Below, piece after piece: positions 8,575 to 31,983 of a stretch of 32,079 bases of DNA. This DNA comes from Duncaniella muris (lineage in GTDB: Bacteria > Bacteroidota > Bacteroidia > Bacteroidales > Muribaculaceae), in the NCBI RefSeq assembly GCF_003024805.1, contig NZ_PUEC01000032.1:1-32079 (forward strand), given 5' to 3'. A program made the translations under genes and the position numbers. The notes beneath the pieces are model-generated. The model did not search any database, was not told the origin of the DNA, and saw only the letters and a program-made list of their open reading frames with translations. Position 1 is the first letter of the stretch. Each line of letters starts with the position of its first letter.

Positions 8575-8675
8575 AGAACGGCGACCAGGACGTGAAGAAA
8601 ACCATCATGCTCACCATCGGCGGATGTATCGCGTTCATCGCCTTGAGTGAGGCGTTGCCCCTGTTCTTCAAGTAG
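8575..8675 (+). CDS. traE: TraE (DUF4134), second exon
   Basis: After the intron, AG completes codon 86 (C+AG, Gln) and the frame continues NGDQDVKKTIMLTIGG to a stop at 8675. It adds 32 residues after Gln86, including the last transmembrane segment (TIMLTIGGCIAFIALSEAL). The G-D-x-D before the last membrane helix is typical of DUF4134 proteins and confirms the exon match. Without splicing this part has no proper start and TraE would be lost, so transfer should depend on intron splicing. Confidence 0.85.
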
Positions 8676-8699
8676 CCGGAAGCGGAAAACCATACATTC

Positions 8700-8987: not shown

Positions 8988-8990
8988 CAG

Positions 8991-12586: not shown

Positions 12587-12590
12587 TTAT

Positions 12591-13268: not shown

Positions 13269-13293
13269 ACGCCACTTTAACAACAACGCATAT

Positions 13294-13983: not shown

Positions 13984-14034
13984 TGGCCGGAAATGATAAT
14001 GACAATGAAACAATAATCCTACAAATACAAGATT

Positions 14035-15162: not shown

Positions 15163-15186
15163 CACTAACCGCAACACCTTATAAAT

Positions 15187-15450
15187 ATGCTTATCAAATC
15201 ACTTGAACAGAAAACGCGGCTCGCGCTTATGACGGTCATGGCGACCGTCGCGGGCTGTGTCCTGATATGCGGATTCACCGTATGGCGGTGCGTGTCGCTT
15301 GTCAGCGAGGAGCGTCAGCAGATATACATCCTCGACGGCGACATACCCTTCCTCGCGGAACGTGCTAAGCTGGAGTCCAACTTCATTATGGAAGCGAAGG
15401 CTCATATCCAGCTTTTCCACCAATATGTTTACTATCTTCATATCGTGTAA
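15187..15450 (+). pseudogene. traK: TraK, truncated after about 80 codons
   Basis: The frame starts as a normal VirB8-like TraK: a transmembrane segment near the N-terminus (about 13-35) and the conserved QQIYILDGDIPFLAERAKLE and EAKAHIQLFHQY segments. Full TraK proteins are about 200 residues. Here, after QLFHQY (about 15424), the sequence changes to YYLHIV and a stop, and no further TraK sequence is found in the window. The following DNA is AT-rich and leads to the recombinase genes. The gene was therefore cut by deletion or by insertion of another element, and traL and later genes are missing. Confidence 0.82.
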
Positions 15451-15552
15451 GTAATAGGAATAAATAAGAATACAAACACTTTAATTATATGATACTTATC
15501 CTTGTTATTCATTTCTAATTTGATTCCTTTAATCTCTGCTGATAGGTTTATT

Positions 15553-15638
15553 TTTGTTACTTTAATTGCTACTTATTTGTTACTTTTGAAAATATTTTGT
15601 AATTTTACATCAGTAAAATGACCATATAGTAACAAATA
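15553..15638 (+). promoter_or_regulatory. Promoter of the recombinase pair with a TTTGTTAC operator triad
   Basis: TTTG (15576-15579) and TAATTTTAC (15600-15608) are exactly 20 nt apart, a good Bacteroidetes promoter starting near 15615. TATTTGTTAC (15574-15583) overlaps the -33 box and its perfect inverse GTAACAAATA (15629-15638) lies in the leader. A further direct TTTGTTAC is at 15553-15560. The three copies around the promoter look like binding sites of a repressor or of the recombinases themselves (arm-type sites). Confidence 0.55.
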
Positions 15639-15646
15639 TAATTCTC

Positions 15647-16771: not shown

Positions 16772-16783
16772 ATCCCCCTTATT

Positions 16784-17935
16784 ATGGCACGACCCAAGAA
16801 ATCAGTAAAGGCTAAGGAGCCTGTAAGAATCCGCTTCAAGGAATTGAAGAACGGCAACAAGTCAATCTATCTTGATATATACCGCGACGGCAAACGCACA
16901 TACGAGTTTCTAAAACTCTACATCGTGCCTGAACTTGATCCTGCAAGCCGGGCATTGAACGAGCATAATCTCGCACTTGCCAACAAGGTGAAGGCTGACC
17001 GCATCATACAGCTAACCAACAATGAGAAAGGCGTTACAAACTCAATGCTTCACTCACGGTTGAAACTGATTGACCTTATCAATATGTATGAGCAATGGAT
17101 TAAGGACAACGGCAAGAGTATGGGTCCGTCGGGACTGGCAAGCCTGAGGAAAGCAGTGACGCAGTTCCGTGGGGATGGCGTGACCTTAAAGCAGATTGAT
17201 AAGACCTACTGCATCGAGTTTATCAACTATCTCCGGAATGACTATAAGTCTCGGATGAAAAGACCGCTTTCCACCAACAGCATAGCGTCATATTCCGCTG
17301 CTCTAAGCGCAACTTTCAACTGGGCTGTGCGACATGATTATATCAAGGAGAACCCTTTTGACAAACTTTCCTCCAACGACCGCGTGTATCATGTCGAGAG
17401 TCAGCGCGACTATCTGGAGATTGACGAGCTGAAACGCTTGATCGCCACAGAGTGCCCCACTCGTCAGTCCGTCAAACAGGCATTTCTGTTTTCATGTTAT
17501 TGCGGACTCCGTACAAGCGACATCCGCGCACTCCGATGGGGGCAGATCCATAAGGACGGCGACCAGTGGCGCGTGTCGGTTGTGATGAAGAAAACTGCCA
17601 CACCGATTTATCTCCCCCTTTCGTCACAGGCTATGAAGTGGCTGCCGGAGCGTGGCGATGCCTCAGATGATGACAAGGTTTTCAGTCTGCCTACGACAAG
17701 CCGTGTCAGCATTATTCTTGGCAACTGGGCGAAAGCAGCCAATGTGAAGAAAGAAATCACTTTCCACGTGAGCCGTCATACCTTCGCTACCCTTATGTTG
17801 ACGCTTGATGTAGACCTTTACACAACGAGCAAGCTGTTAGGTCACAAGAATATAGCCACCACGCAGATATATGCAAAAATCATCGATCAGAAGAAAGATG
17901 ATGCGGTTAATCGTGTGGACGAGATTTTCAAATAA
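16784..17935 (+). CDS. Tyrosine recombinase/integrase, intact active site
   Basis: The gene encodes 383 residues, 12 bp after its degenerate partner. The layout is an arm-type domain (about 14-50), a SAM-like domain (about 85-200) and a catalytic domain. All key residues are present: Arg243 (CGLRTSDI), His328 and Arg331 (HVSRHTFATL), His354 (LLGHKN) and nucleophile Tyr363 (TTQIYAKI). It should cut and rejoin DNA by a 3'-phosphotyrosine link. It may be the integrase of the conjugative element or of a separate island that carries the B12 genes. The end lies only 33 bp from the convergent DUF2284 gene. Confidence 0.92.
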   Translation: MARPKKSVKAKEPVRIRFKELKNGNKSIYLDIYRDGKRTYEFLKLYIVPELDPASRALNEHNLALANKVKADRIIQLTNNEKGVTNSMLHSRLKLIDLINMYEQWIKDNGKSMGPSGLASLRKAVTQFRGDGVTLKQIDKTYCIEFINYLRNDYKSRMKRPLSTNSIASYSAALSATFNWAVRHDYIKENPFDKLSSNDRVYHVESQRDYLEIDELKRLIATECPTRQSVKQAFLFSCYCGLRTSDIRALRWGQIHKDGDQWRVSVVMKKTATPIYLPLSSQAMKWLPERGDASDDDKVFSLPTTSRVSIILGNWAKAANVKKEITFHVSRHTFATLMLTLDVDLYTTSKLLGHKNIATTQIYAKIIDQKKDDAVNRVDEIFK

Positions 17936-17968
17936 TTGAAAGCGATTCTTACCCATTTTGAATTGCCG

Positions 17969-18544
17969 CTATATTTTTAATTTGTTTTTACAAATATTCT
18001 CAGTGTTATGAAATAAACCGCAGATGAGCGTTAGATATTCAGGTAGATTACCGTCATTACTCCATAGCAATGGGAAACCGAATAGCTCAGATGCAGTTTT
18101 TCCGAGATCGAAGCCGTATGATTCAAGAGAGGGTCTCACCAATTCCGGATGCCGGCACGGTTGATTGTCAAGCCTTGAACAAGTACCTTCGGGACAATAA
18201 AGGCAGCTTCCGGCGTAAGCAAATGCCTTTCCTCTGTAAGTGATTTCCATATCCCGCAATTTCTTTTCGATACGTAGTCGTTCCGGGCGAAAGAATCGGT
18301 TTACTTCCGAGAAAGGGATTTTCTTTTCATCGGGAATAATCTTGGTGGCTACTAAAAACAGATTGGCGTATTGACGCAGTTCCGCCATCGTATCATGCGA
18401 AAACGGAGGACAGACCCACACCTTACCATAATTCCGGCATTCTTTGCAATACTTTATGAAACACTCGGAATTACTGAATCTACGTATGTATTCTTCTGTA
18501 GATATGGTAGCTGTAAAATCTTGTACCTGGTATGTAAATGTCAT
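17969..18544 (-). CDS. Cysteine-rich DUF2284 predicted metal-binding protein
   Basis: The gene encodes about 191 residues from the ATG in an ATGA overlap with btuD, preceded by GGAAG; an ATG at 18559 would add five residues. It has two Cys clusters: C28, C33, C36 and C45 (ECFIKYCKECRNYGKVWVC) and a second set near 105-125 (SCLYCPEGTCSRLDNQPC), with CPPFSHD and CRHPELVRPS segments typical of DUF2284. Such proteins are predicted to bind metal or an Fe-S cluster. As the last gene of the riboswitch-controlled operon it may act on imported corrinoid in the cytoplasm, for example in reduction or handling; that is inference. The C-terminal few residues lie at the element boundary. Confidence 0.8.
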   Translation of the reverse strand: MTFTYQVQDFTATISTEEYIRRFSNSECFIKYCKECRNYGKVWVCPPFSHDTMAELRQYANLFLVATKIIPDEKKIPFSEVNRFFRPERLRIEKKLRDMEITYRGKAFAYAGSCLYCPEGTCSRLDNQPCRHPELVRPSLESYGFDLGKTASELFGFPLLWSNDGNLPEYLTLICGLFHNTENICKNKLKI

Positions 18545-19293
18545 TTTCTGTTCTTCCATAACAATTCTTCAAAGCTCAAATCCGGAGACGAGAATAATCT
18601 TTGTATATGCCCGCTTTTCACCATTTCCGTTACTGAAAGATGATGAAGCGCACCATTATCCACCAGTGCGATACTGTCACACATACGAAGTGCCACATCC
18701 AGTTCATGAGTTGAGAACAGGACACATTTAGCTTTTTCGTGTGCAAGTGTGCGAAGAAGCGAGACGAGTTCATAGCGGTTGGGCATATCGAGGAAGGAGG
18801 TGGGTTCGTCAAGAAGCATTACCGGTGTGTCCTGCGCCAAAGCCCGTGCGATCATAATACGCTGGCATTCTCCGTCGCTCATGGTATCCATTGTACGCCC
18901 GGCATAACCCTCCATCCCTACCAAGCGAATGGCATCCGACACAATGTGTATGTCGATATCCTGCATCCTGCCTATCCAGTTGGTGTACGGGGAGCGACCG
19001 ATGGCTACGACATCCTCACAGCGCAGATTGGGAATCCGTGTGCGTTCCGTGGTTACAAACGCGAGAGACCTGGCGAGTCTGTCGGGAGTGAGTGAACGTA
19101 TATCCTTGCCGTCAAGTATTATATCTCCCGAATATTGTCTGTTCAATCCGGCAATGGCTCTCAGAAGGGTCGATTTGCCTGAACCGTTGCGTCCGATAAG
19201 AGCGGTCAGTTGTCCTTTGCCGAAAGACGTATTCACCTTGTCGAGCAGGACACGGGAGCCGAAGCCTATTGAGAAATCCTTGAGATGTATCAT
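18541..19293 (-). CDS. btuD: BtuD-like cobalamin ABC transporter ATPase
   Basis: The gene encodes 250 residues from ATG 19293, which overlaps the btuC stop (ATGA). It has Walker A GRNGSGKST (34-42), a signature MSDGECQR (variant of LSGGQ), Walker B VMLLDEPTSFLD and an H-loop FSTHELD. It is of the FecE/BtuD class that drives vitamin B12 or siderophore import with a FecCD permease. Location in a cobalamin-riboswitch operon decides for corrinoids. The stop overlaps the DUF2284 start by 4 bp. Confidence 0.9.
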   Translation of the reverse strand: MIHLKDFSIGFGSRVLLDKVNTSFGKGQLTALIGRNGSGKSTLLRAIAGLNRQYSGDIILDGKDIRSLTPDRLARSLAFVTTERTRIPNLRCEDVVAIGRSPYTNWIGRMQDIDIHIVSDAIRLVGMEGYAGRTMDTMSDGECQRIMIARALAQDTPVMLLDEPTSFLDMPNRYELVSLLRTLAHEKAKCVLFSTHELDVALRMCDSIALVDNGALHHLSVTEMVKSGHIQRLFSSPDLSFEELLWKNRK

Positions 19294-20291
19294 GCGGTAA
19301 CGGATTTGTTGCGAAGCACCACCCATACTACCACGGGGATACCGAGCAGTGCGGTAATAGCATTGACAGGCAGTGTGAATAACTTGGAAACGAGGTCGCA
19401 GAGCAGCAGGACGGACGCGCCGGTAAGAACCGTCCCGGGAATGAGGATACGATGGTCACTGTTGTCAAAGAGCATCCTTGTGACGTGTGGCATAGCGAGA
19501 CCGATAAAGCCGATGGGGCCGCAGAAGGCAGTGACCATTCCTGCAAGCAATGTCGTTGAGAGGAACAGAAGTCCACGGGAGCGCCGGATATTCAGTCCCA
19601 TAGTGACGGCATATTCCTCACCGAAAAGGAGCAGGTTGAGCGGTTTGATGGTTATAACCGCCATAGCCAGTCCAATCATCACAGCCGGGACAAGGACATA
19701 AAGCTGGGATAGGGTGACATCACCGAGCGAACCCATAGTCCAGATGACAAAAGCCTTTAGTGATTCTTCCTTGCTGAGATACTGCAGAATCTGTACTATC
19801 GCACCGACCCCCGACGAGAACATCATGCCGAGAATGAGGATCACCATAATATCCTTGATGCGGTGTCCAACGGCAGCGATAACGATGAGAACAGCCGCAG
19901 CCCCGATCCATGCGGCTCCGGCAATGCCAAGTGAGGCAAAGGAAGCCGAAAGACCGAATAGAGGCGCACCAAGAATGAAAAGAGCCACGCCGAGACTTGC
20001 GCCTGAGCTTATGCCAAGGACGTATGGCCCTGCAAGTGGATTCCGGAAAAGAGTCTGCATCTGAAGTCCGCTCACTGACAGAGCAGCCCCGGCAAGTAAA
20101 GCGACAACCGCCTTTATAAGACGAATGTTGAGAATGATTTTTGCCGTTGTCCGGGGACAATCTCCACCGGTGAGAGCAGCCCACACATCGTGCAGGGGCA
20201 CAGCGACAGCCCCCACGGACAGATCCAGCATGAACAGGAAGAGCGTGAGGGCAGCCAAAACAATGAAAAGAAACAATGCTCTTGTCCGCAT
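19290..20291 (-). CDS. btuC: BtuC-like cobalamin ABC transporter permease (FecCD family)
   Basis: The gene encodes 333 residues, all of the FecCD/BtuC type: about ten hydrophobic helices, the family segments GLQMQTLFRNPLAGPYVLGI and CGPIGFIGLAMPHVTRML, and a C-terminal helix ending in VVVWVVLRNK. It forms the inner-membrane channel with BtuD and receives substrate from BtuF, whose gene lies 11 bp upstream. The length is usual for the family. Confidence 0.92.
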   Translation of the reverse strand: MRTRALFLFIVLAALTLFLFMLDLSVGAVAVPLHDVWAALTGGDCPRTTAKIILNIRLIKAVVALLAGAALSVSGLQMQTLFRNPLAGPYVLGISSGASLGVALFILGAPLFGLSASFASLGIAGAAWIGAAAVLIVIAAVGHRIKDIMVILILGMMFSSGVGAIVQILQYLSKEESLKAFVIWTMGSLGDVTLSQLYVLVPAVMIGLAMAVITIKPLNLLLFGEEYAVTMGLNIRRSRGLLFLSTTLLAGMVTAFCGPIGFIGLAMPHVTRMLFDNSDHRILIPGTVLTGASVLLLCDLVSKLFTLPVNAITALLGIPVVVWVVLRNKSVTA

Positions 20292-20302
20292 TTCCGTAAT
20301 TT

Positions 20303-21445
20303 CTATTTCAGTTGCTTGTAATAGACGAAATCTTCTTCTACGAGTTCGGGATGGAAGATTTTTACAAGATCGCGCAGTAGTATATCGGGATTGACAACAG
20401 CAGATTCGTAATAGTCATTACCACCCGCAGCATTTGTCTTCAGATTGTTGTTCCAGACAGAGCCGTTACGGAAGCATCGGGTGTCTGAGAACTTCGGGCA
20501 TGATGTCCTGAGTTCATCGAGTGTGTTTGCCATACCTACATTGAGCCACATATCCGCCTCGGAAGTCAGCTTATACGCTTCTTCAAGGTCAATAGGCAGT
20601 GAAGCATGCCCGGTATTCTTCTTATAAATGTAGTCACCTCCGGCATCCTTGACAAGCCGGGCCACATAGCTTTCGGTGGAAGGCATGAACCAGGAATCTC
20701 CATAGGGTGTGTTGAGCATCACGGAGGGAGCATCGAGCACGGTATCGGCGACTCTCTTTTTAAGGTCATTGTACCTGACAGGGATGCCGGCAAAAACCTG
20801 TTCGCCGGCGTTACGTTTTCCGACAACCTCGGAAAGAGCTACCATCCATTCGGCTTTGCCGAGCGGTGATTCCTCGAGATAGTCACCGACGTACATAAAC
20901 GGTATTCCCAGTTCGTTGAGTTTCCCTTCCATCGAGCTTGCACCGTTCACTCCGTAGAGTAGGACAAGATCCGGGTCGAGGGAAATGAGCAATTCGTAAT
21001 TGATGTTCCCTTCATAGCCTACGTCACCGATACTGTCACGGTTAGCGGAGATAACCGGATTGGAAATATAGTCGATGCCGGAAACACCTACCACACGCCC
21101 GTCTTCGCCGACAGCATCGAGCATGGCTATATGAGTGGATGACATAGCCACAATACGCGAAGCATCACCCTCGAGTACCTGACCTGTGAATCCTTCGGGA
21201 GCAGACTCACCGCCTCTTGCTATGAAGAGCTGAGTGGTTATGCTGTCCGCACCCTGCCACGGATTGGTGACAGTAATGATGGAGCTTTCATATCCGTCCG
21301 CACCCTTGATACTGAAGCCGGAGGCATATTCCGGTATATAGAGCTGATTGCTGAATTTGCTGAGCGAAGCTGCCTTTTTACCATTGCAAGCCACCAACAG
21401 GACGATGAGAAGGCACAGACCGAGGAAAGATTTACACTTTTGCAT
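20303..21445 (-). CDS. btuF: BtuF-like corrinoid-binding lipoprotein
   Basis: This 380-residue periplasmic substrate-binding protein of the TroA/BtuF fold has lipobox LLVAC with Cys20, two alpha/beta lobes and the family features SRIVAMSSTHIAMLDAVG (about 91-108) and LLISLDPDLVLLYGVNG. No acidic residues follow the lipid Cys (CNGKKAAS), unlike the surface lipoproteins of this operon, so it should stay on the periplasmic side and pass corrinoid from BtuB to BtuCD. It is longer than E. coli BtuF, as is common in Bacteroidetes. The gene starts 22 bp after btuB. Confidence 0.88.
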   Translation of the reverse strand: MQKCKSFLGLCLLIVLLVACNGKKAASLSKFSNQLYIPEYASGFSIKGADGYESSIITVTNPWQGADSITTQLFIARGGESAPEGFTGQVLEGDASRIVAMSSTHIAMLDAVGEDGRVVGVSGIDYISNPVISANRDSIGDVGYEGNINYELLISLDPDLVLLYGVNGASSMEGKLNELGIPFMYVGDYLEESPLGKAEWMVALSEVVGKRNAGEQVFAGIPVRYNDLKKRVADTVLDAPSVMLNTPYGDSWFMPSTESYVARLVKDAGGDYIYKKNTGHASLPIDLEEAYKLTSEADMWLNVGMANTLDELRTSCPKFSDTRCFRNGSVWNNNLKTNAAGGNDYYESAVVNPDILLRDLVKIFHPELVEEDFVYYKQLK

Positions 21446-21467
21446 ATTCTGATGATTTTTTGGTTTT

Positions 21468-23561
21468 TCAATAATTATCTGTTTTCAATTCTGTCTTTTT
21501 CTTTCCGAACTTCGGTGTTATTCCGACAAAGAACTCGAAATTGATGCCGGGCATGGGACGCGAGAGGACTGAGAGATAGTCCTCGTTGAAGAGATTGTTC
21601 ACAGCCAGTTTCAGCTGTAAATCGACAGGTTTGAACTTCAGCCCTTTTTCAAGGGATACGTTGCTCATGTAATACTTAGGGAGGTGCCCTGTGATAGTAT
21701 AGTCGTTGCTCGACATGGTGAATCTCTCTGAATAGTAAGCCCATTTATACAGGAAGCTCCATGACTTCCATGTAAGACGCCCCGTGAACGAAGCTGAGTG
21801 CTTGGGGACGTAAGGTAGCTGCTTGCCTACAGACTGGTCAGCAGGTGACATCTTCTCACCCTCGTTGATTGAGGGAGTCCATGAATATGATCCGTTCAGG
21901 TCGAAAATCCACCCCTTGAAAGGCTCGAAGGCGATATTCAGCTTTCCCTCGATGCCGTAGGCGTGTACCTTCTTGACGTTGCGTGGCGAGAAGAATCCTT
22001 TGGTTGTGGGAAGCCAGATGATCCAGTCGTCGATACGGCTGTCAAACCATGTGGCACTTCCACCCATCGACACCGGGAAGGGAGCTTTCCAACCCACATC
22101 GAATGAAGCACCGGCGTCATACGTCCACCCATGCTCGCTCTTCAGGTCAGGATTGCCGCCGGGGAGAAAATAGAGGTCGTTGAGCGTAGGGAACTTGTGG
22201 TTGCGTGATACGGACGCTTTCAGCATGACGTTTCCTTTCCTTGACAGAAGACCGTCGATGAAGAAAGCCGGGATTACGGGAGCCCAAGTTTCGCCAAACA
22301 TCTCCTGACGCAGTACGAGTGACAAGCCCAGCGGATTGATCGGCTGCCATTTAGCTGAAGCGGAACCGGATAGTTCAATACGACCCTTGTCGTAACCGAC
22401 AACGGCTTTGTCACCATCCTGAAGGATAATGTTCTTATCCTCGGAGCGGACGAAATGCTGATGTGCCGAAATATTAGCGGTAAAATACCATTTCCTTGTG
22501 GGATTATACTCACCCTCTGCCTGACCGTAGAAAGTGTTTACCCTGCTTCGTGAGCGTGTCATGGACGACCAGTTGTTTTCAGCTACCTCACGCTTGTAGT
22601 CATACGCCATCCATGTGTGGATATATCCCCCTTTTGCTGCAAATTTCCAGCCATCGCGCCGATGATCCCATGAGAGGACGCTGCGGAGGGTCTGTTCACG
22701 CTGACGGTTCTCGAAGTTGCGCTCGTTGCCGTAGTCGGTGGTGAGCATGGGCAGTTCGCGGTTGGAATTGATATACCAAGCGTTGAATCCGAAACGGTCA
22801 CCCTTGTTGGTGTCATAGTAAACCTCTTGCAGCGCATGGAAATCCTTGTAGGCACCGCTGCGATTGCGTTCGGTCGGGTGATACTGACCTATTATGTTCC
22901 TATCATCGTCGTAGATGTTCACCTTCTTGTCGTGGTTGATGTACTTGTAGTTGTTCGGTGAAGATGAATAGACAACACGGCTTGAAACGTGCCAGTGTTC
23001 ACTGCCGTATGTAAAACGGGCGAACTCGTCGAATGTGCTGAACGACCCCACACCCTGCACATATTGCAGATTGACACCTTCCGCCACATCGGGAATAGTG
23101 CCGAGTCTGACAAGACCGCCCAGACCTCCGCCTGTCTCATTGACCGATGACGTGCCGTGTAGCAGCGATGCCTGATCTATGAAGTAGGACGGAATGGTGG
23201 AGAAGTCGGTCATGCCGAGCATGGGGTTGTTGATGCGCATGCCGTTCCACGTCACCTGCGTATGGCTGGGGGAGGTTCCACGGAAGGCGACGGTGGAGAG
23301 TGTGGCTCGACCGTAGCTCTTGACGAAGACTGAAGAATTGAACGTGAGGATGTCAGCCATAGAGAGGGCGATGTTCTCTTTGAGGGCAATGGAATCGAAA
23401 GTTGTTTTCTGCACTCCGATATCCTTCATCGGGCGTTTGCCCCACACCACGACCTCACGCAGATTGTGCATTCTCTGTGAAGACTGTGCGTATGTTCCGG
23501 TGCACAATGCAAAATTCATAATGCACAGAAAAAAATATATGTATGACCGGTCTGTTCTCAT
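21468..23561 (-). CDS. btuB: BtuB-like TonB-dependent outer-membrane corrinoid receptor
   Basis: The gene encodes 697 residues. A signal peptide covers about residues 1-25 (ending in TGTYAQ). The plug domain follows (about 32-150, with REVVVWGKRP, SMADILTFNSSVFVKSYG, FRGTSPSHTQVTWNGMRIN and GGLGGLVRLGT). The rest is a 22-strand-type barrel ending in aromatic strands near NFEFFVGITPKF. It has no carboxypeptidase-like extension, unlike SusC proteins, which fits BtuB. Together with BtuG it should take corrinoids across the outer membrane using TonB. It lies 10 bp after the HUH protein gene. Confidence 0.9.
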   Translation of the reverse strand: MRTDRSYIYFFLCIMNFALCTGTYAQSSQRMHNLREVVVWGKRPMKDIGVQKTTFDSIALKENIALSMADILTFNSSVFVKSYGRATLSTVAFRGTSPSHTQVTWNGMRINNPMLGMTDFSTIPSYFIDQASLLHGTSSVNETGGGLGGLVRLGTIPDVAEGVNLQYVQGVGSFSTFDEFARFTYGSEHWHVSSRVVYSSSPNNYKYINHDKKVNIYDDDRNIIGQYHPTERNRSGAYKDFHALQEVYYDTNKGDRFGFNAWYINSNRELPMLTTDYGNERNFENRQREQTLRSVLSWDHRRDGWKFAAKGGYIHTWMAYDYKREVAENNWSSMTRSRSRVNTFYGQAEGEYNPTRKWYFTANISAHQHFVRSEDKNIILQDGDKAVVGYDKGRIELSGSASAKWQPINPLGLSLVLRQEMFGETWAPVIPAFFIDGLLSRKGNVMLKASVSRNHKFPTLNDLYFLPGGNPDLKSEHGWTYDAGASFDVGWKAPFPVSMGGSATWFDSRIDDWIIWLPTTKGFFSPRNVKKVHAYGIEGKLNIAFEPFKGWIFDLNGSYSWTPSINEGEKMSPADQSVGKQLPYVPKHSASFTGRLTWKSWSFLYKWAYYSERFTMSSNDYTITGHLPKYYMSNVSLEKGLKFKPVDLQLKLAVNNLFNEDYLSVLSRPMPGINFEFFVGITPKFGKKKTELKTDNY

Positions 23562-23571
23562 AATTGGCGGC

Positions 23572-23991
23572 TTAAAAAAGATTATAGTTCATGAACTGAC
23601 GTTTCTCCTGCATCCAGCTCATTTCAGAGTGTATGGTATCCTGCTGTTCAATGTAATCGGCCCAGAATGGCAGTCGGTCACGTTCAACAATAAAGGATAG
23701 ACAGCCTTTGAGCCATCCTCCAAATCTTTCCATATCCAGAATTCCGGCAGCCCTGAAACAACTGATATTTTTGATTTTCTCAATCAGCTTCTTCACGTTT
23801 TTGCGGAGCGGGATTTCTGTAAGGATATGGACGTGGTTCATATCTCCTCCGACGGCATAAACCGGGCAGTGGCGGTTGCTGAAGAGAAGTGCGATGGCAT
23901 CAAAAAATTCATCCCTGTGGAGAGGCGGTATCGCCACTCCAAAGTCTCTTGTCTGAAAAATCAGATGATATATGTTTCCTGACGCCTCCAT
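23572..23991 (-). CDS. HUH (Y1, RAYT-like) transposase-family protein within the btu operon
   Basis: The gene encodes 139 residues. The IS200/REP-associated transposase features are present: the HUH motif H53-V-H55 in GGDMNHVHILTEIPL, and the C-terminal helix with the candidate nucleophile Tyr113 in YIEQQDTIHSEMSW, matching the RAYT pattern Y-I-x-x-Q. The start (ATG 23991) shares one base with the btuG stop and btuB starts 10 bp after its stop, so it is co-transcribed and coupled. No insertion-sequence ends or partner genes are visible around it. It is either a domesticated DNA-processing protein or a very clean insertion. Any role in B12 uptake is unknown. Confidence 0.8.
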   Translation of the reverse strand: MEASGNIYHLIFQTRDFGVAIPPLHRDEFFDAIALLFSNRHCPVYAVGGDMNHVHILTEIPLRKNVKKLIEKIKNISCFRAAGILDMERFGGWLKGCLSFIVERDRLPFWADYIEQQDTIHSEMSWMQEKRQFMNYNLF

Positions 23992-25064
23992 CACTTCCAG
24001 CAGAATGCGCCGGGTATTATGCCGACATAAAATTCATCAATCAGTTTTCCTTCGGGAGAGTATCGGTAGATCATGCCCTGCTGCTGGTAGTCGATGGCAT
24101 CGGCTACATACACTTCGCCGTTCACAGGATTTACGGTAAGTCCGTAATACTTCGTGTCGCGGTATTCGAGGAAAGGACGGACAGGAACACGGTTTGCCGT
24201 CACGTCCATACACCAGATGTCGTTGTTAATCCAGTACAGCTTGTCACGTTCGCCGTTGAGCTGTACCTCCGAGGGCCAGTCGCCCAGTTTGAACTTGAAC
24301 TGCTTCTCAATCTTGAAAGTTGCCGCGTCGATGCAGTAGAGAGACGGAGCCTCATAGCCGTATGGAGATCCTTCATAACCACCGTCAGTCACAGTCCACA
24401 TCTTGTCGTACTTATCCATTACAAGGGACGTGGGCTGTATGCCGACCGTCAGCTGGTCCACTACCTTATCCGTCTCGGTATCGATCTTGATGATGCGGTT
24501 CTGGTAGCTCCAGCAGTTGCAATACACATATTTGCCGTATTGCACCATCTGCTCCGTTGAGCCGCTCTCCATCGTCATGTCAGGCACCTGAATGTAGCCT
24601 GTAATTTCATACTTCTTGGGATTGACAATGAAGATGCGGTTGTCCCAAAGCTGCGTGACGTAAGCCTTTTCATCGCTCAGGAAGTGGATATAACGCGGAG
24701 AGGTCAAATCCTCGATACGTCCCACCTCCTTGAACGTATTGAGGTCGATAGCAAAGATGACATGGGAGTTGTTCACCACTATCCAGCCCTTGTTGTCATA
24801 TATGCTCATGGACTGAGCAACATCGCCGAGCTTCATACCGTTTGCACGGAAGAACACCTCGTTCTGTACCTGATTCGTTGCAGGGTCATAATAAGAAAGC
24901 GTCGCGTTGCCATATTGGAAATTGCCCTCGTTGGTAATGAACAGTCCCGAGCCGGTCGCATTAAAGTCCTCCACCACATCGCCGTAGTCCCACTCCATGC
25001 AGGAAGCGAGGGTGAGCGACAGAAGTGTTGTCAGGATATATAAGAGTTTCGGTTTGAATTTCAT
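23991..25064 (-). CDS. btuG: BtuG, surface cobalamin-binding beta-propeller lipoprotein
   Basis: The gene encodes 357 residues. A lipoprotein signal with Cys22 (LTLASC) is followed by an acidic patch (MEWDYGD) that fits surface export. The rest is a seven-bladed YncE/DUF5074-type propeller: repeated blades such as GLFITNEGNFQYGNATLSYY, YIHFLSDEKAYVTQLWDNRI, TSLVMDKYDKMWTVTDGGY and YGLTVNPVNGEVYVADA. BtuG proteins bind cobalamin extremely tightly and sit as a lid on BtuB. Its gene lies just upstream of the btuB pair, as expected, apart from the inserted HUH gene. Confidence 0.9.
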   Translation of the reverse strand: MKFKPKLLYILTTLLSLTLASCMEWDYGDVVEDFNATGSGLFITNEGNFQYGNATLSYYDPATNQVQNEVFFRANGMKLGDVAQSMSIYDNKGWIVVNNSHVIFAIDLNTFKEVGRIEDLTSPRYIHFLSDEKAYVTQLWDNRIFIVNPKKYEITGYIQVPDMTMESGSTEQMVQYGKYVYCNCWSYQNRIIKIDTETDKVVDQLTVGIQPTSLVMDKYDKMWTVTDGGYEGSPYGYEAPSLYCIDAATFKIEKQFKFKLGDWPSEVQLNGERDKLYWINNDIWCMDVTANRVPVRPFLEYRDTKYYGLTVNPVNGEVYVADAIDYQQQGMIYRYSPEGKLIDEFYVGIIPGAFCWK

Positions 25065-25077
25065 TTTAATAATTTGA

Positions 25078-25120
25078 AAACCTCGACCCGCTATTCAAGG
25101 TAATATACGAGCCGAGGTTT
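25078..25120 (-). promoter_or_regulatory. Hairpin between the LRR-like gene and btuG
   Basis: AAACCTCG (25078-25085) and CGAGGTTT (25113-25120) form a perfect 8-bp stem with a 27-nt loop in the 86-bp gap before btuG. The T-tract is weak on the minus strand. It may be an mRNA processing or stabilising hairpin or a partial attenuator that sets the ratio of the upstream lipoproteins to BtuG/BtuB. Confidence 0.45.
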
Positions 25121-25150
25121 GGCAGAAAAATTTTAACTGTTTGAGCTGTT

Positions 25151-27136
25151 TTATTCAGCAGGTTTGCAACGACCTTCCTTCATATCCTGATATGTAGGAT
25201 TATAAGTGCAATTTTCAATCTTCCAATTAGATTCTGTTATTTGACCGTCATCAATGAATTTCTTAAAGAACGTGTAGTCAGAGAATTTTCTAACGGTGTC
25301 GAAATGCACACCTGAAAGTTTTAATAATTTTGGAAACTTCAGATGATCTGAAGAGATGAAATCTGTTGTCATGCCAAATTTAAGTGACCCGTCAATAACT
25401 TCAAGACTTGGAAATGAAGCTGATTCATATATTCTAAACAAAGTTAAGCCAGTGCCTCCAATATGACTTAAAACAGGGAAAAATGAATCAGTAATTGCCC
25501 CGTCCAAAAAGACGGTAAAAGATCCCCACTCAATATTTTTTACTGGTGACCCAGGGAGAAGATCCTCTTCTATGTACTCTGGAGACGATGCACAACATAC
25601 CGTAGTCAAACTGGGAAAATCTAATATAGCATCAACTCCAACCTGTAAAATAGACTGTCCACCAATGCTTTTAAGATTACTGGCTTTTACACTGGTAATA
25701 GAAGAACCTGTTATTAATAAATAACCTGGAATAGAATTAATACCAGATAAATCAATAGTATTCTTTGAAGATTGACCGCTCATTTGAATGATTGACAAAT
25801 TCCCCGTTATACTTTGTAAAGAAGACTCAAAAGTATCTATATTAGCGTTATAATAAAAGTTGTTTATTTTTGTGAAATTTGTTTTTACAGCAGTGTTTAA
25901 CGAGATAATCCTAACATCCACATCGGTTAGATCTTCTTTAGTTATCAAATTGTTGAACTTATTACAGTATTCAATTGTAATACAAGGATGTGTAGGTGAA
26001 GATGAAGTAAAACTAACATTACTAATATCTAGCGATTCAATTAGAGCGAGTTGTCTGATGAATACGCCTCCAAGCTGATTTAACCCTTGCAACTTGGGCA
26101 AGTTCTCAAGAACATCAAAATTCATTATGGACCATACTCCAGTTACTAATGTTAATTTATCGAACCCTTCAATAGATTTTAACTCGGTATTACCCATAAA
26201 GAATCTCATACCGGCAGTCTCCACTTCCCCATATATGCTCTCTATTGATAAATTTCCATTTACTGTAACAATATTGGGTACTGATATTGATGAAAATTCA
26301 CGTGGTAAAACCTTAAATTCAAGAGATCCTGTTTCCTTAAGTAGAGGTAACGATATTTGTGTAAGTTTTGTGTTTTCATTGAAAATAACATTACCCTCAA
26401 CTTTTTCAAGTTCTTTGAATTCAATTATTGATGCTCCTGAGCCATAAATTTGTATATCTCCTGTAACATTCTTTATTTTAGACATAGAAATCATTTCCAA
26501 GGACGTATCCTGTAATGGATTTTCTTCACTTCCTATAAGAAGTCCGCCAATCGAAGTAATATTGTCAAGACCAGTAAGGGTACCGCCAGTAAAGCTATTC
26601 TTGATTATGATGTTTCCTTCAACCTCCTTAAGAATGCTTAATCCTGTTATATCATTGATTATTTCGGCATTTTCAGCGTTTGAACCAATAATAAGATTCC
26701 CTTTTATGATTGTTACACCGGATTCAATAAAGGCTGCTACTTCTGAGGGTGTTTTGAGTTCAACATTTCCTTCACTTCTTATCTCATCCTTCACAACAAC
26801 ATAAGTATAATCATTTATAGTTCCATTATAAGAAGTTACACGGAAAGTGCGTTCAGTATTCCAATCTGTTATGGTTGCTGGGTCCGGGAATATTTTTGCT
26901 GATGGTGTATAATCGAATGATGCTTTCGCTCCATCAAGTGAAACCGTGTATGGAACTGTCACAGTAATTGTATTGTTTTCAATTACCGCTTCATACGTTT
27001 TATCATTTACACTAAGTACCACTGATGTGATATAATTATCATCAGCATCAACTGGAATTTCGTCTTTATCAGAACAGCCTACAGCAAAAATGCAGAAGAA
27101 TAGGCTGAACAGCAAGTTAAATTTGATTGTTTTCAT
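25151..27136 (-). CDS. Surface lipoprotein with DUF5018-like and receptor-L/LRR-like repeats
   Basis: The gene encodes 661 residues. A lipoprotein signal ends at Cys21 (FAVGC) followed by SDKDE, an acidic surface-export signal. Residues about 35-118 form a beta-sandwich of the Bacteroidetes DUF5018/cadherin-like type. From about 135 to 630 a series of beta-helical/LRR units repeats the theme GNLIIGS...LTGLDNITSIGGLL and TVNGNLSIESI, as in receptor L domains. Paired Cys occur at CCASS and near the end. It is co-transcribed between the PKD-like protein and BtuG under the cobalamin riboswitch. I do not know a function for this protein in B12 uptake; a corrinoid or corrinoid-protein capture role is inferred from context. 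The gene is visibly AT-rich. Confidence 0.75.
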   Translation of the reverse strand: MKTIKFNLLFSLFFCIFAVGCSDKDEIPVDADDNYITSVVLSVNDKTYEAVIENNTITVTVPYTVSLDGAKASFDYTPSAKIFPDPATITDWNTERTFRVTSYNGTINDYTYVVVKDEIRSEGNVELKTPSEVAAFIESGVTIIKGNLIIGSNAENAEIINDITGLSILKEVEGNIIIKNSFTGGTLTGLDNITSIGGLLIGSEENPLQDTSLEMISMSKIKNVTGDIQIYGSGASIIEFKELEKVEGNVIFNENTKLTQISLPLLKETGSLEFKVLPREFSSISVPNIVTVNGNLSIESIYGEVETAGMRFFMGNTELKSIEGFDKLTLVTGVWSIMNFDVLENLPKLQGLNQLGGVFIRQLALIESLDISNVSFTSSSPTHPCITIEYCNKFNNLITKEDLTDVDVRIISLNTAVKTNFTKINNFYYNANIDTFESSLQSITGNLSIIQMSGQSSKNTIDLSGINSIPGYLLITGSSITSVKASNLKSIGGQSILQVGVDAILDFPSLTTVCCASSPEYIEEDLLPGSPVKNIEWGSFTVFLDGAITDSFFPVLSHIGGTGLTLFRIYESASFPSLEVIDGSLKFGMTTDFISSDHLKFPKLLKLSGVHFDTVRKFSDYTFFKKFIDDGQITESNWKIENCTYNPTYQDMKEGRCKPAE

Positions 27137-27154
27137 ATTGTATTTTTTTGCTTA

Positions 27155-28915
27155 TTACTTAATATTTAAGTCTTGAAAAGAGAATACTTCAGTAGAAATC
27201 TCTCCTAGTGGACCGCTCTTTGCTAATACTCCACACTGAACTTTGATAAAATCAATATATTCAAGTTTGACTGGTGTTCCATCCTTAAATATGGCATTTG
27301 ATATTTTAAATCCATTCATCTGACCAGTGCCATCATAGGAGTCCCCTCCAAGACAATCACTTCCTATATTGTCAACATAACCCCACTCATAGGCTTGGTT
27401 ATTCCAAAAACCGGAAGATGGGATCTGAATATTTTTTGGCAATAATCTCGTGCCAGTCAGTGTGTATGATTCTTGATTCATCCAAAGAGGATAATAAGAG
27501 CTCTGTTGATGATATGAATTGTAATCAACAGACCCAGAATTTCCCAAATTATCAGTCCAATAAACATTTGAGCGTGCGGACACCGGACGATAGTATGTTA
27601 CTTCGTAATCTTGAATAGTTGAACCGTTACCAGTCTCACTACCTTTAAGCTCATACCATTCATCGTCTGGAAGACCATTCCCATTTACATCTTGCATTAC
27701 CCAAACAATGCCGGGCTCATTGCTTCCTCCTTGATCGCTTAAAAAAGCATTTCCTTGGATTGCAAAATCATATCCGCCTTTATTGGGAATACTATGATCA
27801 AATCCGACAATAACGTATCCTCCAAAAGAACCAAGGGAAACGTACTTTTTATTTGCCAGTCGCTCTGCAGCATATTGATTTGCAGCATTAAAAGTTATTT
27901 CATCACCTTTGAACCCACCGGAATTCGTTTCATTCACAAATTGCCCGGGTGCAGGTAAAAATTCAAAAACATCTGTTGAATAAGCTGAGCTGGAGGTATT
28001 TGCTGCTCGATATCTTGATGACTGTGCTCCTGGCTCACATACAACTCTAATTTTTGATTCAACAGAAATTCCATTCTCCTCTTCTGTTACTGCAATTGAA
28101 ATAAGATACTCACCGTCCTTTTCAGGAGTAAATATTAATAATGGTTCAGTAGCTCCTTCTACAGCTTTGCCATTGACAGCCCACTGAAAAGCAGGATTGT
28201 CAAAGTATTCCAATTGGGGCTTTAAGAAAACAGAGCGACCTGCAAAAGTAAATTTGGTAGTTTCTTTTGCATTATAATACGGTTTTTGAAAAAAAACCGT
28301 ATATGGCATATTTTCTACTACCTCAATCTCCAGTTCTTCTTCAGTAAGCCCATCTTCATTTGAAGCTCTAATAGTTATCGGATATGAACCTAAAATTTCT
28401 TCATTAAATGTGTAGGTTAATTTATCCGACACAACTATTCCATTTCTTAACCATTCAATTTTGAAATCTCCTATATCTTGATTGGCGATCTCCGGTGCGA
28501 GAAGCAGGTCATGACCTTTTTGAACTTTAAGTCCTTTTGAGGGAATGAATAAATTAATGGCAGGTGGAAGTAAATCTTTTACTTCCACCTTAAGTTCTTC
28601 TGCGGCATATCCATTTTCATTATCAACTCGCAATGTGATAAATACATCACCCGCTTCCTCCCATGTATGAGAAAAAGCTTTTTGATTCGATACAAGTTTT
28701 CCGTCAATAGTCCAAGAGAACAAAGCATCATCCGCATTCTCATATGTAGGACTAATGCTTAATTCCTTACCCACCTTAACATTATAAACTCCACTCACAT
28801 TATCAAGGATGATAATAGGTTTTAAAGTTCCATTGTCAACAATTATATCATCTTTATTGCAAGAGCTTATAAAAATGCAAAGTAAAACACATAAGGTTAC
28901 ACTTGGGATTCGCAT
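27155..28915 (-). CDS. PKD-like surface lipoprotein with C-terminal Ca-loop domain
   Basis: The gene encodes 586 residues from ATG 28915; the TTG at 28933 is less likely. Lipobox Cys20 (FISSC) is followed by NKDD, an acidic surface signal. Three PKD/Ig-like domains follow (about 28-115, 117-205, 206-297), each ending with a typical G-x-Y/F-x-I-x-I/L-R-V pattern. The C-terminal domain (about 300-586) is compact and rich in Gly, Tyr and Trp and contains DVNGNGLPDDEWYEL, a calcium-binding-like loop. Proteins of this layout stand beside btuG and btuH in other Bacteroidales B12 loci as I recall them, without an assigned biochemical role. Likely a surface scaffold or binding protein. Confidence 0.75.
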   Translation of the reverse strand: MRIPSVTLCVLLCIFISSCNKDDIIVDNGTLKPIIILDNVSGVYNVKVGKELSISPTYENADDALFSWTIDGKLVSNQKAFSHTWEEAGDVFITLRVDNENGYAAEELKVEVKDLLPPAINLFIPSKGLKVQKGHDLLLAPEIANQDIGDFKIEWLRNGIVVSDKLTYTFNEEILGSYPITIRASNEDGLTEEELEIEVVENMPYTVFFQKPYYNAKETTKFTFAGRSVFLKPQLEYFDNPAFQWAVNGKAVEGATEPLLIFTPEKDGEYLISIAVTEEENGISVESKIRVVCEPGAQSSRYRAANTSSSAYSTDVFEFLPAPGQFVNETNSGGFKGDEITFNAANQYAAERLANKKYVSLGSFGGYVIVGFDHSIPNKGGYDFAIQGNAFLSDQGGSNEPGIVWVMQDVNGNGLPDDEWYELKGSETGNGSTIQDYEVTYYRPVSARSNVYWTDNLGNSGSVDYNSYHQQSSYYPLWMNQESYTLTGTRLLPKNIQIPSSGFWNNQAYEWGYVDNIGSDCLGGDSYDGTGQMNGFKISNAIFKDGTPVKLEYIDFIKVQCGVLAKSGPLGEISTEVFSFQDLNIK

Positions 28916-28982
28916 TGTTTCTTTAAAATACAAATATGGTAAGCAACAATAGGATTAACCAAAGTTGCTTACCATAGTTAGA

Positions 28983-29939
28983 TTATTCAATAGTAATATC
29001 ATCAAGGCAAATATAGGCTGGAGTGTTCAGACCGTAGTCCCCCGTATCCGAACCAGAGAAGTTCAGTTTTACGGTTTTTACATTTGCCTGATTAATTGGC
29101 CAGTACGTCCAAGTGGTAACAGGATCTTGTTTTTTCCCGTTTCTGTAATCTGCCAAAGTTTGAACATAGGTGGCCAACAGTTCACCATTTTCATTATAAC
29201 ATTCTAATTCAACTTGAAAATAGCCAATACAATTTCCATCACCATCAACTTGCTTTGATAAAGGTGTAGCTACACCAGAAACGCCAAATTGATTGCCGTT
29301 CATTATCACTCCATATGTATAGGAAGAGTTACAAAACCACAGACCTTTTAGAGTTTTTTTTCGGATAAAAGAGAAAGATGGCTTAGCCATCCACTGTGAA
29401 TTGTAAAAATCCTGATACCCATATACAACTGCAAAGTTATTGCCACTATGACCTGCATTAACATTAGCTCCGTCAGTTGAAGTGGTGTTGTACACACTCA
29501 TCTGATTGTTATATGAATACCACCAATCGCCAGTTCCAGAACCGGTAATATTGGTACCACTACCAGGATTCGACCGATAGTTCCATTTAGAAAGAGCCAG
29601 ACCTCCATTATAGAAGGCGGTAGAACCGCCAATTACATTGATTGATGACTCAAAGATGCCTGAAGGATCTTTAATTTGCTTTACCTGTGCATAGCTTCCA
29701 GTATTGCCGTAATAGTTTGCACCATAAGAAGTGGGCATTGCCATCATGGTTGATTCAAAATCATCAAACGTGATGATTGTTGAATCGCCTTGCACGACCG
29801 CACGACTAACTGGGTTCTCAACCTCCATTTTGCCCTCAAAGTCGGCGAATGGTTCATCTTCACTGGAACATCCGGTGAAGACGGCTGCTGAGACCGCTAC
29901 GGTCGCCAGAGCCAAGAATTTAGTAAAATGTTTTCTCAT
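28983..29939 (-). CDS. btuH: BtuH-like cobalamin-binding surface lipoprotein (DUF4465)
   Basis: The gene encodes 318 residues. The signal ends at Cys24 (VFTGC) followed by SSEDEP, an acidic surface-export signal. After a short linker, residues about 55-318 form the DUF4465 beta-sandwich (ITFDDFESTMMAMPTSYGAN, SGNNFAVVYGYQDF, KPSFSFIRKKTLKGLWFCNS, the final PAYICLDDITIE). DUF4465 proteins of gut Bacteroidetes (BtuH) bind vitamin B12 at the cell surface. It is the first gene after the riboswitch and terminator and the leader ends 34 nt upstream, so it is directly controlled by B12. Confidence 0.85.
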   Translation of the reverse strand: MRKHFTKFLALATVAVSAAVFTGCSSEDEPFADFEGKMEVENPVSRAVVQGDSTIITFDDFESTMMAMPTSYGANYYGNTGSYAQVKQIKDPSGIFESSINVIGGSTAFYNGGLALSKWNYRSNPGSGTNITGSGTGDWWYSYNNQMSVYNTTSTDGANVNAGHSGNNFAVVYGYQDFYNSQWMAKPSFSFIRKKTLKGLWFCNSSYTYGVIMNGNQFGVSGVATPLSKQVDGDGNCIGYFQVELECYNENGELLATYVQTLADYRNGKKQDPVTTWTYWPINQANVKTVKLNFSGSDTGDYGLNTPAYICLDDITIE

Positions 29940-29973
29940 AACTAAACAGTTTTAGAGTTTGCAGATTGTTAAT

Positions 29974-30023
29974 AAAAAAAGTTACCCGATTGTGTACGAC
30001 TTGATAATCGTAACCAATCGGGT
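29974..30023 (-). terminator. Riboswitch-linked transcription terminator before btuH
   Basis: ACCCGATTG (29984-29992) and CAATCGGGT (30015-30023) pair perfectly, with an inner TACGA/TCGTA stem inside. On the minus strand the hairpin is followed by AAC and seven T (29974-29980). It lies about 108 nt after the B12 aptamer and 35 nt before the btuH ATG, so it is the likely expression platform: when B12 is bound, transcription should stop here. Confidence 0.75.
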
Positions 30024-30130
30024 ATATGACGGTATATGTATATCCTAAACGGAAATCGGCGGAAAGCCAAAGCCTTGCCAATACTGTTTGAGATAATCGC
30101 CGAGTGCCCGCGGTACATTATCGCATCGTA

Positions 30131-30308
30131 TTGAAGCAGGTCTTCTGACTCGTCCCCGTTGTCCGCGCCTTCTCACCCTGCGAGGGGCAATGACATTGTG
30201 CGGAAACGTTGCGTGGGACTCACAGCAGCAGGTACTGTCCCGGATTCTCACCGGATTCCCTTTCAATCCACTCTAGCCGACACCTCTGTAGCGGCAGTGG
30301 AACTTCAA
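30131..30308 (-). promoter_or_regulatory. Cobalamin riboswitch
   Basis: The P1 stem pairs TTGAAG (minus strand, 30303-30308) with CTTCAA (30131-30136). The conserved B12-box AGTCAGAAGACCTGC lies at 30136-30150 and the L5-region core (GGGAATCCGGTGAGAATCC, followed by the GCTGCTGTGA segment) at 30220-30260, all on the minus strand. This is the standard cobalamin aptamer. It controls the ten-gene operon from btuH to the DUF2284 gene, lowering expression when B12 is plentiful. Confidence 0.93.
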
Positions 30309-30312
30309 CGCC

Positions 30313-30345
30313 GCAAAATTACAAAAAATAATCTTCCCCACCTAA
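30313..30345 (-). promoter_or_regulatory. Promoter of the B12 operon
   Basis: On the minus strand TAATTTTGC (30313-30321) matches the -7 box TAnnTTTG, and TTAG (30342-30345), one mismatch from TTTG, lies 20 nt upstream. Transcription would start near 30306, at the base of the riboswitch P1 stem. Confidence 0.5.
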
Positions 30346-30392
30346 TAAGTTTCCTTTTTTAACGAACCGTAAATCATTTTTTTCGCAGTTAT

Positions 30393-30424
30393 CTTGGCGA
30401 TTAGACTTTTTGAGCTATCTTTGC
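30393..30424 (+). promoter_or_regulatory. Promoter of the AAA+ ATPase gene
   Basis: TATCTTTGC (30416-30424) is a perfect -7 box, and CTTG (30393-30396), one mismatch from TTTG, lies 19 nt upstream. Transcription would begin near 30431, so the start at ATG 30461 (or 30470) is preferred over a TTG at 30410 that lies before the promoter. Confidence 0.5.
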
Positions 30425-30460
30425 GATGTCTTTTTGTGTGACAAGGCACAATATTTGACA

Positions 30461-31723
30461 ATGGGCATTATGATAATACAAAGACCTCTATACCTGCGGA
30501 AGCTCATTTCTCGCAGACAGAACGGAATGATAAAGATTGTCACCGGCGTAAGACGCTGTGGCAAATCATTCTTGTTATCTACCCTATACGCAGGGTGGCT
30601 CAGGGAGCAAGGTGTGGAAAACGACCACATCATCACGATCAATCTTGAAGACAGACGAAACAGGAAACTGCGCGATCCGGATGCGCTGCTTGATTACATC
30701 GACTCAAAACTGACTGATGATGCCGTCCATTATATAATGATTGATGAGATACAGCATGTCAGCGAGTTCGAGGACGTGCTCAACAGCTATCTGAATATGC
30801 CTAATGCCGACGTGTATGTAACAGGTAGCAACGCACGATTTCTTTCCAAGGATGTAATCACTACTTTTAGAGGACGAGGCGATGAGATAAAGCTTTACCC
30901 TCTCAGTTTCGGTGAGGTCTTCCCATATATGGACTTACAGAAAGACCGTGCATTAAACACCTATATGCTTTTCGGAGGTCTGCCGCAGGTTGTTCAGAAA
31001 TCATCTGAGGAAGAAAAGAACGAGTATCTGAAAGGGCTTTTTACGCATACCTATATCAAGGATATAAAGGAACGTTACGGCATCAAGAACATAGAAATGC
31101 TTGATGAACTGCTCAACATCCTGGCATCTGATATTGGAGCTTTGACGAATCCCACCAAACTGACAAACACATTCGAGAGCGTTAAGCATACGAAAGTCAA
31201 CCGCATGACGCTTACGTCGTATCTGGAATACATCTGTGACTCGTTCCTTGTTGAGAAGGCAAGCCGGTATGATGTTAAAGGGAAACGGTATATCGACAGC
31301 CCGTATAAATATTATTTCACTGACTGCGGCCTGCGTAACGCCCTGCTTAATTTCAGGCAGACAGAGCCTTCACATCTGATGGAGAATGTGATATACAATG
31401 AATTGCGTGTGCGTGGTTTTAATGTCGATGTAGGTGTCGTGCCGGTACAACTTAGAAAGGAGGATGGCAGCCGGGAAAGGAAACAGTTTGAGGTGGATTT
31501 CGTCTGCAATATGGGCAGCAGACGCTACTATATCCAATCCGCCTACCGGATGCCGGATGAAGAGAAGATGAAGCAGGAGGAAGCGTCCCTGCGCAATATT
31601 GACGATTCCTTCAAGAAAATCATTATCGTTGGCGAAGACACTCCTGTTTTGAGAAATGAGGCTGGGATTACCACAATCGGTATATATGATTTCCTGTTAA
31701 ATGAAATTTCATTGGATTTGTAA
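30461..31723 (+). CDS. AAA+ ATPase, AAA_14/DUF4143 family
   Basis: The gene encodes 420 residues from ATG 30461 (ATG 30470 also possible). Walker A is GVRRCGKS (29-36) and Walker B is YIMIDEIQ at about residue 100; VTGSNARFLS (sensor I type) and FRGRGDEIKLYPLSF follow, then the C-terminal DUF4143 nuclease-like domain with HLMENVIYNELRVRGFNV and FEVDFVC segments. Members are common in gut Bacteroidales in many copies. Their function is not established; defence, stress or mobile-element roles have been proposed. It is transcribed away from the B12 operon and does not look like part of it. Confidence 0.85.
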   Translation: MGIMIIQRPLYLRKLISRRQNGMIKIVTGVRRCGKSFLLSTLYAGWLREQGVENDHIITINLEDRRNRKLRDPDALLDYIDSKLTDDAVHYIMIDEIQHVSEFEDVLNSYLNMPNADVYVTGSNARFLSKDVITTFRGRGDEIKLYPLSFGEVFPYMDLQKDRALNTYMLFGGLPQVVQKSSEEEKNEYLKGLFTHTYIKDIKERYGIKNIEMLDELLNILASDIGALTNPTKLTNTFESVKHTKVNRMTLTSYLEYICDSFLVEKASRYDVKGKRYIDSPYKYYFTDCGLRNALLNFRQTEPSHLMENVIYNELRVRGFNVDVGVVPVQLRKEDGSRERKQFEVDFVCNMGSRRYYIQSAYRMPDEEKMKQEEASLRNIDDSFKKIIIVGEDTPVLRNEAGITTIGIYDFLLNEISLDL

Positions 31724-31755
31724 GAAGTGCCAATGATATAGCTTTTTGATCAATT

Positions 31756-31983
31756 ATGGCTGACCAGATTATACATAACCTATTGACGCGGTTAAAAGAA
31801 GTCAATTTTATTCTTGAAACTTGTACAGACGGTACTATGCCTTTTGAACAGGCGAATGTCATTGCACGGTTCTACTACGACTATCAGGATACAAACGTCC
31901 TTATCGACGAAGCCGAGAGGATGGCAACGGAAGATACCGAGGGACTTAGGGAGTCGTACATTTGTACGGTTAAATGTTTTTGA
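31756..31983 (+). CDS. Small hypothetical protein
   Basis: The gene encodes 75 residues, starts 32 bp after the ATPase gene on the same strand and may be co-transcribed. It is mostly helical and acidic (NLLTRLKEVNFILETC, QANVIARFYYDYQDTNVLID, EAERMATEDTEGLRES). No family is recognised and no signal or membrane segment is present. It could be an accessory partner of the ATPase or a remnant of a longer gene. Confidence 0.4.
   Translation: MADQIIHNLLTRLKEVNFILETCTDGTMPFEQANVIARFYYDYQDTNVLIDEAERMATEDTEGLRESYICTVKCF

Follow-up and report, generated by a model that had tools for sequence, protein, structure and literature searches.

A leucine-rich-repeat surface lipoprotein in a Duncaniella muris B12 operon, a probable orthologue of BtuL, diverges in step with BtuJ and PKD-type BtuH

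The closest described counterpart of the gene studied here is BtuL (BT_1955) of Bacteroides thetaiotaomicron, which belongs to operon 2 (BT_1957 to BT_1949) and was named in 2025 (PMC12751083). According to the accessible part of that paper, no cobalamin stayed with recombinant BtuL on a nickel column, and B12 starvation raised the abundance of the protein by a factor of 99.6 in cells and of 1000 in vesicles. Among single-gene-restored strains, only vesicles with BtuJ1 or BtuJ2 were an effective cobalamin source and those with BtuL were not; deletion of btuL lowered vesicle release early but not late. We analyzed a similar gene in a 32,079-nucleotide stretch of Duncaniella muris, hereafter the window, which is the entire 32-kb contig NZ_PUEC01000032.1 of a 3.27 Mb genome in 79 contigs. 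The gene lies at 25151..27136 on the minus strand (ATG start, stop included) and encodes 661 residues (protein P0001). An earlier note, made from the letters of this DNA, had placed a 661-residue surface lipoprotein with receptor-L or leucine-rich-repeat (LRR) likeness there and had seen no assigned role in B12 uptake for such a protein. The observation is sound, whereas the claim of no assigned function is outdated, as the orthologue BT_1955 has been named and tested (PMC12751083).

The window order btuJ-btuH-btuL-btuG-btuB-btuF-btuC-btuD-btuX is that of BT_1957 to BT_1949, plus one Y1 transposase-like gene between btuG and btuB. We recognized the B. thetaiotaomicron-type operon in Bacteroides loci L069–L075 and L077, with L076 slightly diverged. 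In L075, BtuH equals PDB entry 7biz at 491/491 aligned residues over the matched range 103–593, which is the BtuH2 construct in the consulted part of PMC8941943, and BtuJ equals 9i2l at 304/305 residues. The window protein aligned over its full length with L075 BtuL (39% over 709 columns, E 1e-142). Because gene order and full-length homology agree, the window gene is almost certainly the orthologue of BT_1955. The two share the slot between btuH2 and btuG2, the cobalamin riboswitch and the lipoprotein character; they differ in length (696 residues in L075, 661 here) and in a variable solenoid middle. Seven other copies of the L075-type protein differ from it by at most two residues, and L076 keeps 649/696. 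The near-identical proteins of L069–L075 and L077 occupy eight loci in eight genomes, one per species, indicating between-species spread.

The predicted product consists of a signal peptide with lipid-anchor Cys21 (lipobox VGC-SDKDE), an immunoglobulin (Ig)-like N-terminal domain at about residues 30–121, an LRR/receptor-L solenoid at about 130–613, and a C-terminal cap with W638 and the motif CxYNPTYQDM. The anchor cysteine was aligned in 52/52 sequences of the BtuL family, and at least two acidic residues at +2 to +7, the surface-export type of Bacteroidota, were present in 51/52. The Pfam Recep_L_domain (PF01030) scored 47 bits in the window protein (cut-off 21.8; E 3.1e-12); among 20 family members it was found in 19 at E 0.01, and LRR_5 in five. 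The structure prediction suggested in the earlier note gave a strand-rich solenoid with a predicted local distance difference test score of 88.4, for which LRR proteins were the best match on re-alignment. The length, coordinates, surface-export signal and LRR-like repeats given in that note were upheld, with the strand being minus. Whole-model Foldseek matches to TLR4, the insulin receptor and EGFR were repeat matches of low template-modelling score, from which we did not infer homology. A single sequence searched against solved structures gave no match below E 0.099. A profile search gave 4fs7 (an LRR protein of B. ovatus, 5e-9), receptor-type LRR/L domains and the levan surface glycan-binding protein SGBPlev (8a9y, 7.8e-7), and no B12 protein was among the best 60 of its 87 matches.

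The N-terminal part (residues 22–128; 26753..27073, minus strand) matches the lipidated N-terminal Ig-like domain of SGBPlev (Bt1761) from the levan utilisome (8aa0, 8aa2, 8a9y), the kind of domain that docks the levan protein to the SusC barrel. Beyond it the two proteins part: a second Ig-like domain and a levan-binding domain follow in SGBPlev, and the LRR solenoid in BtuL. The glycan-binding C-terminal domain and the susCD neighbours of a utilisome protein are both absent from BtuL, which has a solenoid and a B12 operon in their place. Receptor L and BspA-type LRR proteins resemble it in Recep_L_domain, LRR_5 and predicted fold; BtuL differs in lying in a B12 operon and is not known to act as a receptor or adhesin. 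With the cobalamin-binding BtuG, BtuH and BtuJ, it shares no sequence match to DUF4465 or the BtuG-type DUF5074. A hidden corrinoid-binding domain was rejected, as neither family was matched by the window protein or listed for the 20 members; that Pfam scan offered no model of the BtuH domain, which was sought instead by phmmer of P0001, with no 7biz match.

The gene is a standing member of B12 operons, as the survey of other loci proposed in the earlier note indicates. Counting one genome per species, we found BtuL in 4/149 genomes of the window's family, its own included, with a single-protein query; in at least 32/158 genomes of the genus Bacteroides (to which the B. faecichinchillae genome belongs), where seven candidates were scored per genome and misses are possible; and in at least 8/393 genomes across the order, its own included, with two candidates scored per genome. 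Four of these eight order-level matches were partial solenoids without the N-terminal domain. A gene for PKD-type BtuH adjoined btuL in 36/37 fetched Bacteroides loci (L057–L093), 35 times upstream and once downstream; in L091 it was split into two open reading frames, and the sole locus without it, L084, ended there at a contig edge. An insertion or chance reading frame absent from other B12 loci is thus ruled out, as the neighborhood of BtuL and btuH recurs both in Bacteroides and in other named genera. Conversely, BtuL was present at 36/41 BtuH matches that covered the PKD part, and at 0/15 sampled regions with other BtuH types (L102–L116, drawn from 88 such matches). A riboswitch on the operon's strand lay upstream in 18/18 loci scanned, which were chosen from 40 that had upstream sequence, wholly or partly. 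Two loci (L085 and L086) appeared to be stand-alone riboswitch-BtuH-BtuL units, the next gene on that strand lying 539 and 636 bp farther along. Six loci (L015, L016, L018, L019, L022 and L082) carried two tandem BtuL-family genes after btuH. An unnamed gene of 373–375 residues lay directly 3' of btuL in L088, L090, L092 and L093, with a lipoprotein-like signal at the three starts inspected (L088, L090 and L092); it is possibly a further B12 component.

We compared divergence among five operon proteins in 20 dereplicated loci (190 pairs), in which the near-copy L094 stood in for the window. Identity distances correlated strongly within two groups, BtuJ-BtuH 0.94, BtuJ-BtuL 0.95 and BtuH-BtuL 0.90 on one side and BtuG-BtuB 0.96 on the other, and at 0.44–0.52 between the groups. 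This contrast persisted without the distant loci, where the cross values were 0.51–0.65. In Mantel tests, the observed value was reached by 0/2000 permutations for all ten pairs; because the cross pairs also beat all permutations, the contrast is one of degree. The divergence of BtuL follows that of BtuJ and BtuH and not that of the BtuG/BtuB transporter, a pattern expected of an exchanged cassette. Individual pairs illustrate this. Between the window and L009, L095 and L011, BtuG was 95–97% and BtuB 96–98% identical, and BtuL only 39–41%; L009 is a Muribaculaceae isolate whose BtuG and BtuB are both 97% identical to those of the window, and DNA identity with L095 (genome G057) starts at 25210, within the last 60 bases of btuL. 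L010 and L062 showed the reverse pattern (BtuL 90%, BtuB 78%, BtuG 86%). Window positions 15421–31954 matched the DNA of genome G092, which belongs to another genus, at 96–97% identity, against 83% for the rpoB region; this difference marks the segment as recently transferred. Synonymous divergence (dS) between the window and G092 was 0.014 for BtuL, 0.159 for BtuG and 0.284 for BtuB, pointing to two histories within one operon.

Predicted RNA hairpins flank the btuH-btuL pair. In the window, one lies between btuJ and btuH (28927..28984, minus strand; 13-bp stem, T-rich tail) and one between btuL and btuG (25081..25117, minus strand), followed by TTTT. In 110-nucleotide gene-end windows compared with exact dinucleotide shuffles, folds with z < -2 occurred at the J-H junction in 16/19 loci, at L-G in 17/19 and at H-L in 3/19; controls inside btuL and btuH gave 2/19 and 0/19. 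An analysis of the gaps only, with an approximate shuffle, gave 12/19, 18/19 and 0/19 for J-H, L-G and H-L, respectively. The 20th locus, L022, fell outside these counts: it yielded no gaps in the gap-only analysis, and its BtuL is not followed by BtuG, for which reason the gene-end analysis omitted it. Stem sequences varied between lineages. The L-G hairpin was not universal: btuL abuts btuG in L013 and L096 and overlaps it in L087, and L080 was not significant. A general btuG leader was rejected as its explanation, as L097 and L102–L104, which lack BtuL, leave no gap between btuH and an abutting or overlapping btuG. Promoter-like sites in a search for internal promoters were no more frequent than in shuffles (28 vs 25.0, standard deviation 5.9), and terminator-like consensus sites were at chance (7 vs 10.2) in a scan of loops of 3–8 only, which leaves both longer-looped hairpins unlisted. 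Read-through past the J-H and L-G hairpins may be partial. The hairpins likely set the doses of BtuJ and of BtuH-BtuL apart from that of the transporter. BtuJ2 (Bt1957), the product of the first gene, is reported to be very low, which does not fit a simple dose gradient.

We propose that BtuL would serve, on both cells and vesicles, as a docking scaffold in cooperation with PKD-BtuH. Under B12 scarcity, the riboswitch would permit expression of the operon; BtuL would reach the outer face and dock on a membrane partner through its N-terminal domain; and its LRR arm would hold BtuH, or group BtuJ and BtuH, in a patch favoring the budding of B12-capturing vesicles. We judge orthology together with a scaffold or vesicle role that involves no corrinoid binding to be probable. 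Taken separately, a vesicle role of BtuL in D. muris itself, projected from B. thetaiotaomicron, could equally hold or fail, and direct partnership with BtuH is a tentative suggestion, somewhat below even. The complete scheme, in which the N-terminal domain sits on an outer-membrane barrel, the LRR arm of a swappable J-H-L cassette binds PKD-BtuH, B12-loaded lipoproteins are gathered into budding patches of scavenging vesicles, and the flanking hairpins set the H-L dose above that of the transporter, is doubtful in all its parts at once.

Several points weigh against this proposal. The equation of BT_1955 with the L075-type protein is a strong inference from operon identity, and at 39% identity, function may differ. 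The vesicle phenotype comes from a single paper and the early phase only, and the same paper, in the part cited, reports that a mutant without operons 1 and 3, btuJ2, btuH2 and btuL outgrew the wild type at low B12 (PMC12751083). Five PKD-BtuH loci (L097–L101) lack BtuL, and L089 has the reversed order, with BtuH after BtuL. Linkage within a cassette would also yield correlated divergence, so that contact is not proven, the more so as the between-group correlations beat permutations too. Finally, additional lipoproteins reportedly do not fit on BtuB (PMC10404256, accessible part), which makes it a poor docking candidate; no docking partner of BtuL is known.

The last point also bears on the alternative that BtuL is a utilisome-like accessory, seated on BtuB by its N-terminal domain and helping B12 pass from BtuH to BtuG and BtuB. 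The domain match to SGBPlev brings it to mind, but the reported lack of room on BtuB, the divergence of BtuL tracking BtuH and BtuJ (r 0.90–0.95) over BtuB (0.46), and the two stand-alone H-L units make it improbable. We find it hard to credit a receptor role of BtuL for a corrinoid or a corrinoid-carrier protein (host intrinsic factor, haptocorrin or the B12 proteins of other cells), the kind of ligand put forward in the earlier note. An LRR solenoid with a fast-changing middle, a surface-type signal and riboswitch control would suit such a receptor; against it stand, as far as the cited part of PMC12751083 goes, the failure of BT_1955 to retain cobalamin and of BtuL-only vesicles to serve as a source. 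Because none was seen for the orthologue, cobalamin binding by the window protein is unlikely. BtuH2 (7biz), a lipoprotein encoded in the same cassette and diverging in parallel with BtuL, does bind B12; the fold predicted for BtuL is a different one, and BT_1955 showed no binding. The present analysis points to a partner, PKD-BtuH, rather than to a ligand.

Across the 20 dereplicated loci, median identity was 0.34 for BtuL, 0.40 for BtuJ, 0.50 for BtuH, 0.61 for BtuB and 0.73 for BtuG, and BtuL was the most divergent of the five in 93% of the 190 pairs. Its non-synonymous divergence (dN) was the highest in 11/18 locus pairs and tied in two, the pairs overlapping. These figures would suit a protein that serves mainly as a variable shield or adhesin at the surface, for instance against phages or competitors exploiting B12 receptors, and that travels with the operon, its effects on vesicles being secondary. 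We regard this as very improbable, as BtuL was not the highest in 5/18 pairs, including the closest diverged one (window and G092), whole-gene pairwise dN/dS of 0.12–0.52 (computable in 11/18 pairs) gave no sign of positive selection, and the pairing with PKD-BtuH is left unexplained.

The remainder of the window confirmed the riboswitch-led B12 operon and both neighbors of btuL that the earlier note had named. All features of the operon lie on the minus strand. A cobalamin riboswitch (RF00174, 98.6 bits; 30118..30321) precedes the first gene, which encodes the 318-residue BtuJ lipoprotein (DUF4465; 28983..29939). The BtuH2-type protein (27155..28933), with three PKD_3 stretches and the BtuH domain, has 7biz as its best PDB match (E 3.3e-173); its gene ends 18 bp upstream of btuL, and its true start is probably the ATG at 28915 instead of the listed TTG at 28933. 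BtuG (23991..25064), a surface lipoprotein with 8bmx as its best match (E 1.6e-203), follows btuL by 86 bp. Then come the Y1 (HUH) transposase-like gene (23572..23994), which overlaps the end of btuG; the TonB-dependent transporter BtuB (21468..23561); a BtuF-type binding protein (Peripla_BP_2; 20303..21445); the BtuC permease (FecCD; 19290..20291); the BtuD ATPase (18541..19326); and a DUF2284 gene in the BtuX position (17969..18559). From spacing and strand, we infer that the operon genes are co-transcribed.

The Y1 gene recurs between btuG and btuB in L011, L094 and L095 (96% identity) and in L064–L068 (32–34%). HVH is kept in 9/9 listed copies; the residue before IExQ, which we take to be the catalytic-tyrosine motif, is Tyr in window-type copies and His in L064–L068. 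The gene may be domesticated. The segment shared with G092 holds two tyrosine recombinases, the B12 operon and an AAA_14/DUF4143 ATPase. Positions 1819–16771 contain a relaxase, a ParA-like protein, TraG, an integrase and a reverse-transcriptase-bearing group II intron (RF00029, 8478–8574), so that the operon adjoins a conjugative element. Mobilization of B12 transporters was reportedly the subject of a 2021 study.

Beyond PMC12751083, we found no further paper on BtuL among open-licence PMC papers, and its main text was without the terms leucine-rich, receptor L, LRR, hairpin and horizontal. No prior description of the fold, the near-obligate partner or the cassette logic was found in that literature. 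Which cargo vesicles take and when they are shed is an open question in Bacteroidota, and BtuL is one lipoprotein for which an effect on vesicle release has been reported (PMC12751083). With a fold predicted, a docking-type domain recognized and a single consistent genetic partner named, that effect can be tested as contacts. The cassette structure suggests that the capture and transport parts of one B12 operon evolve and are exchanged separately.
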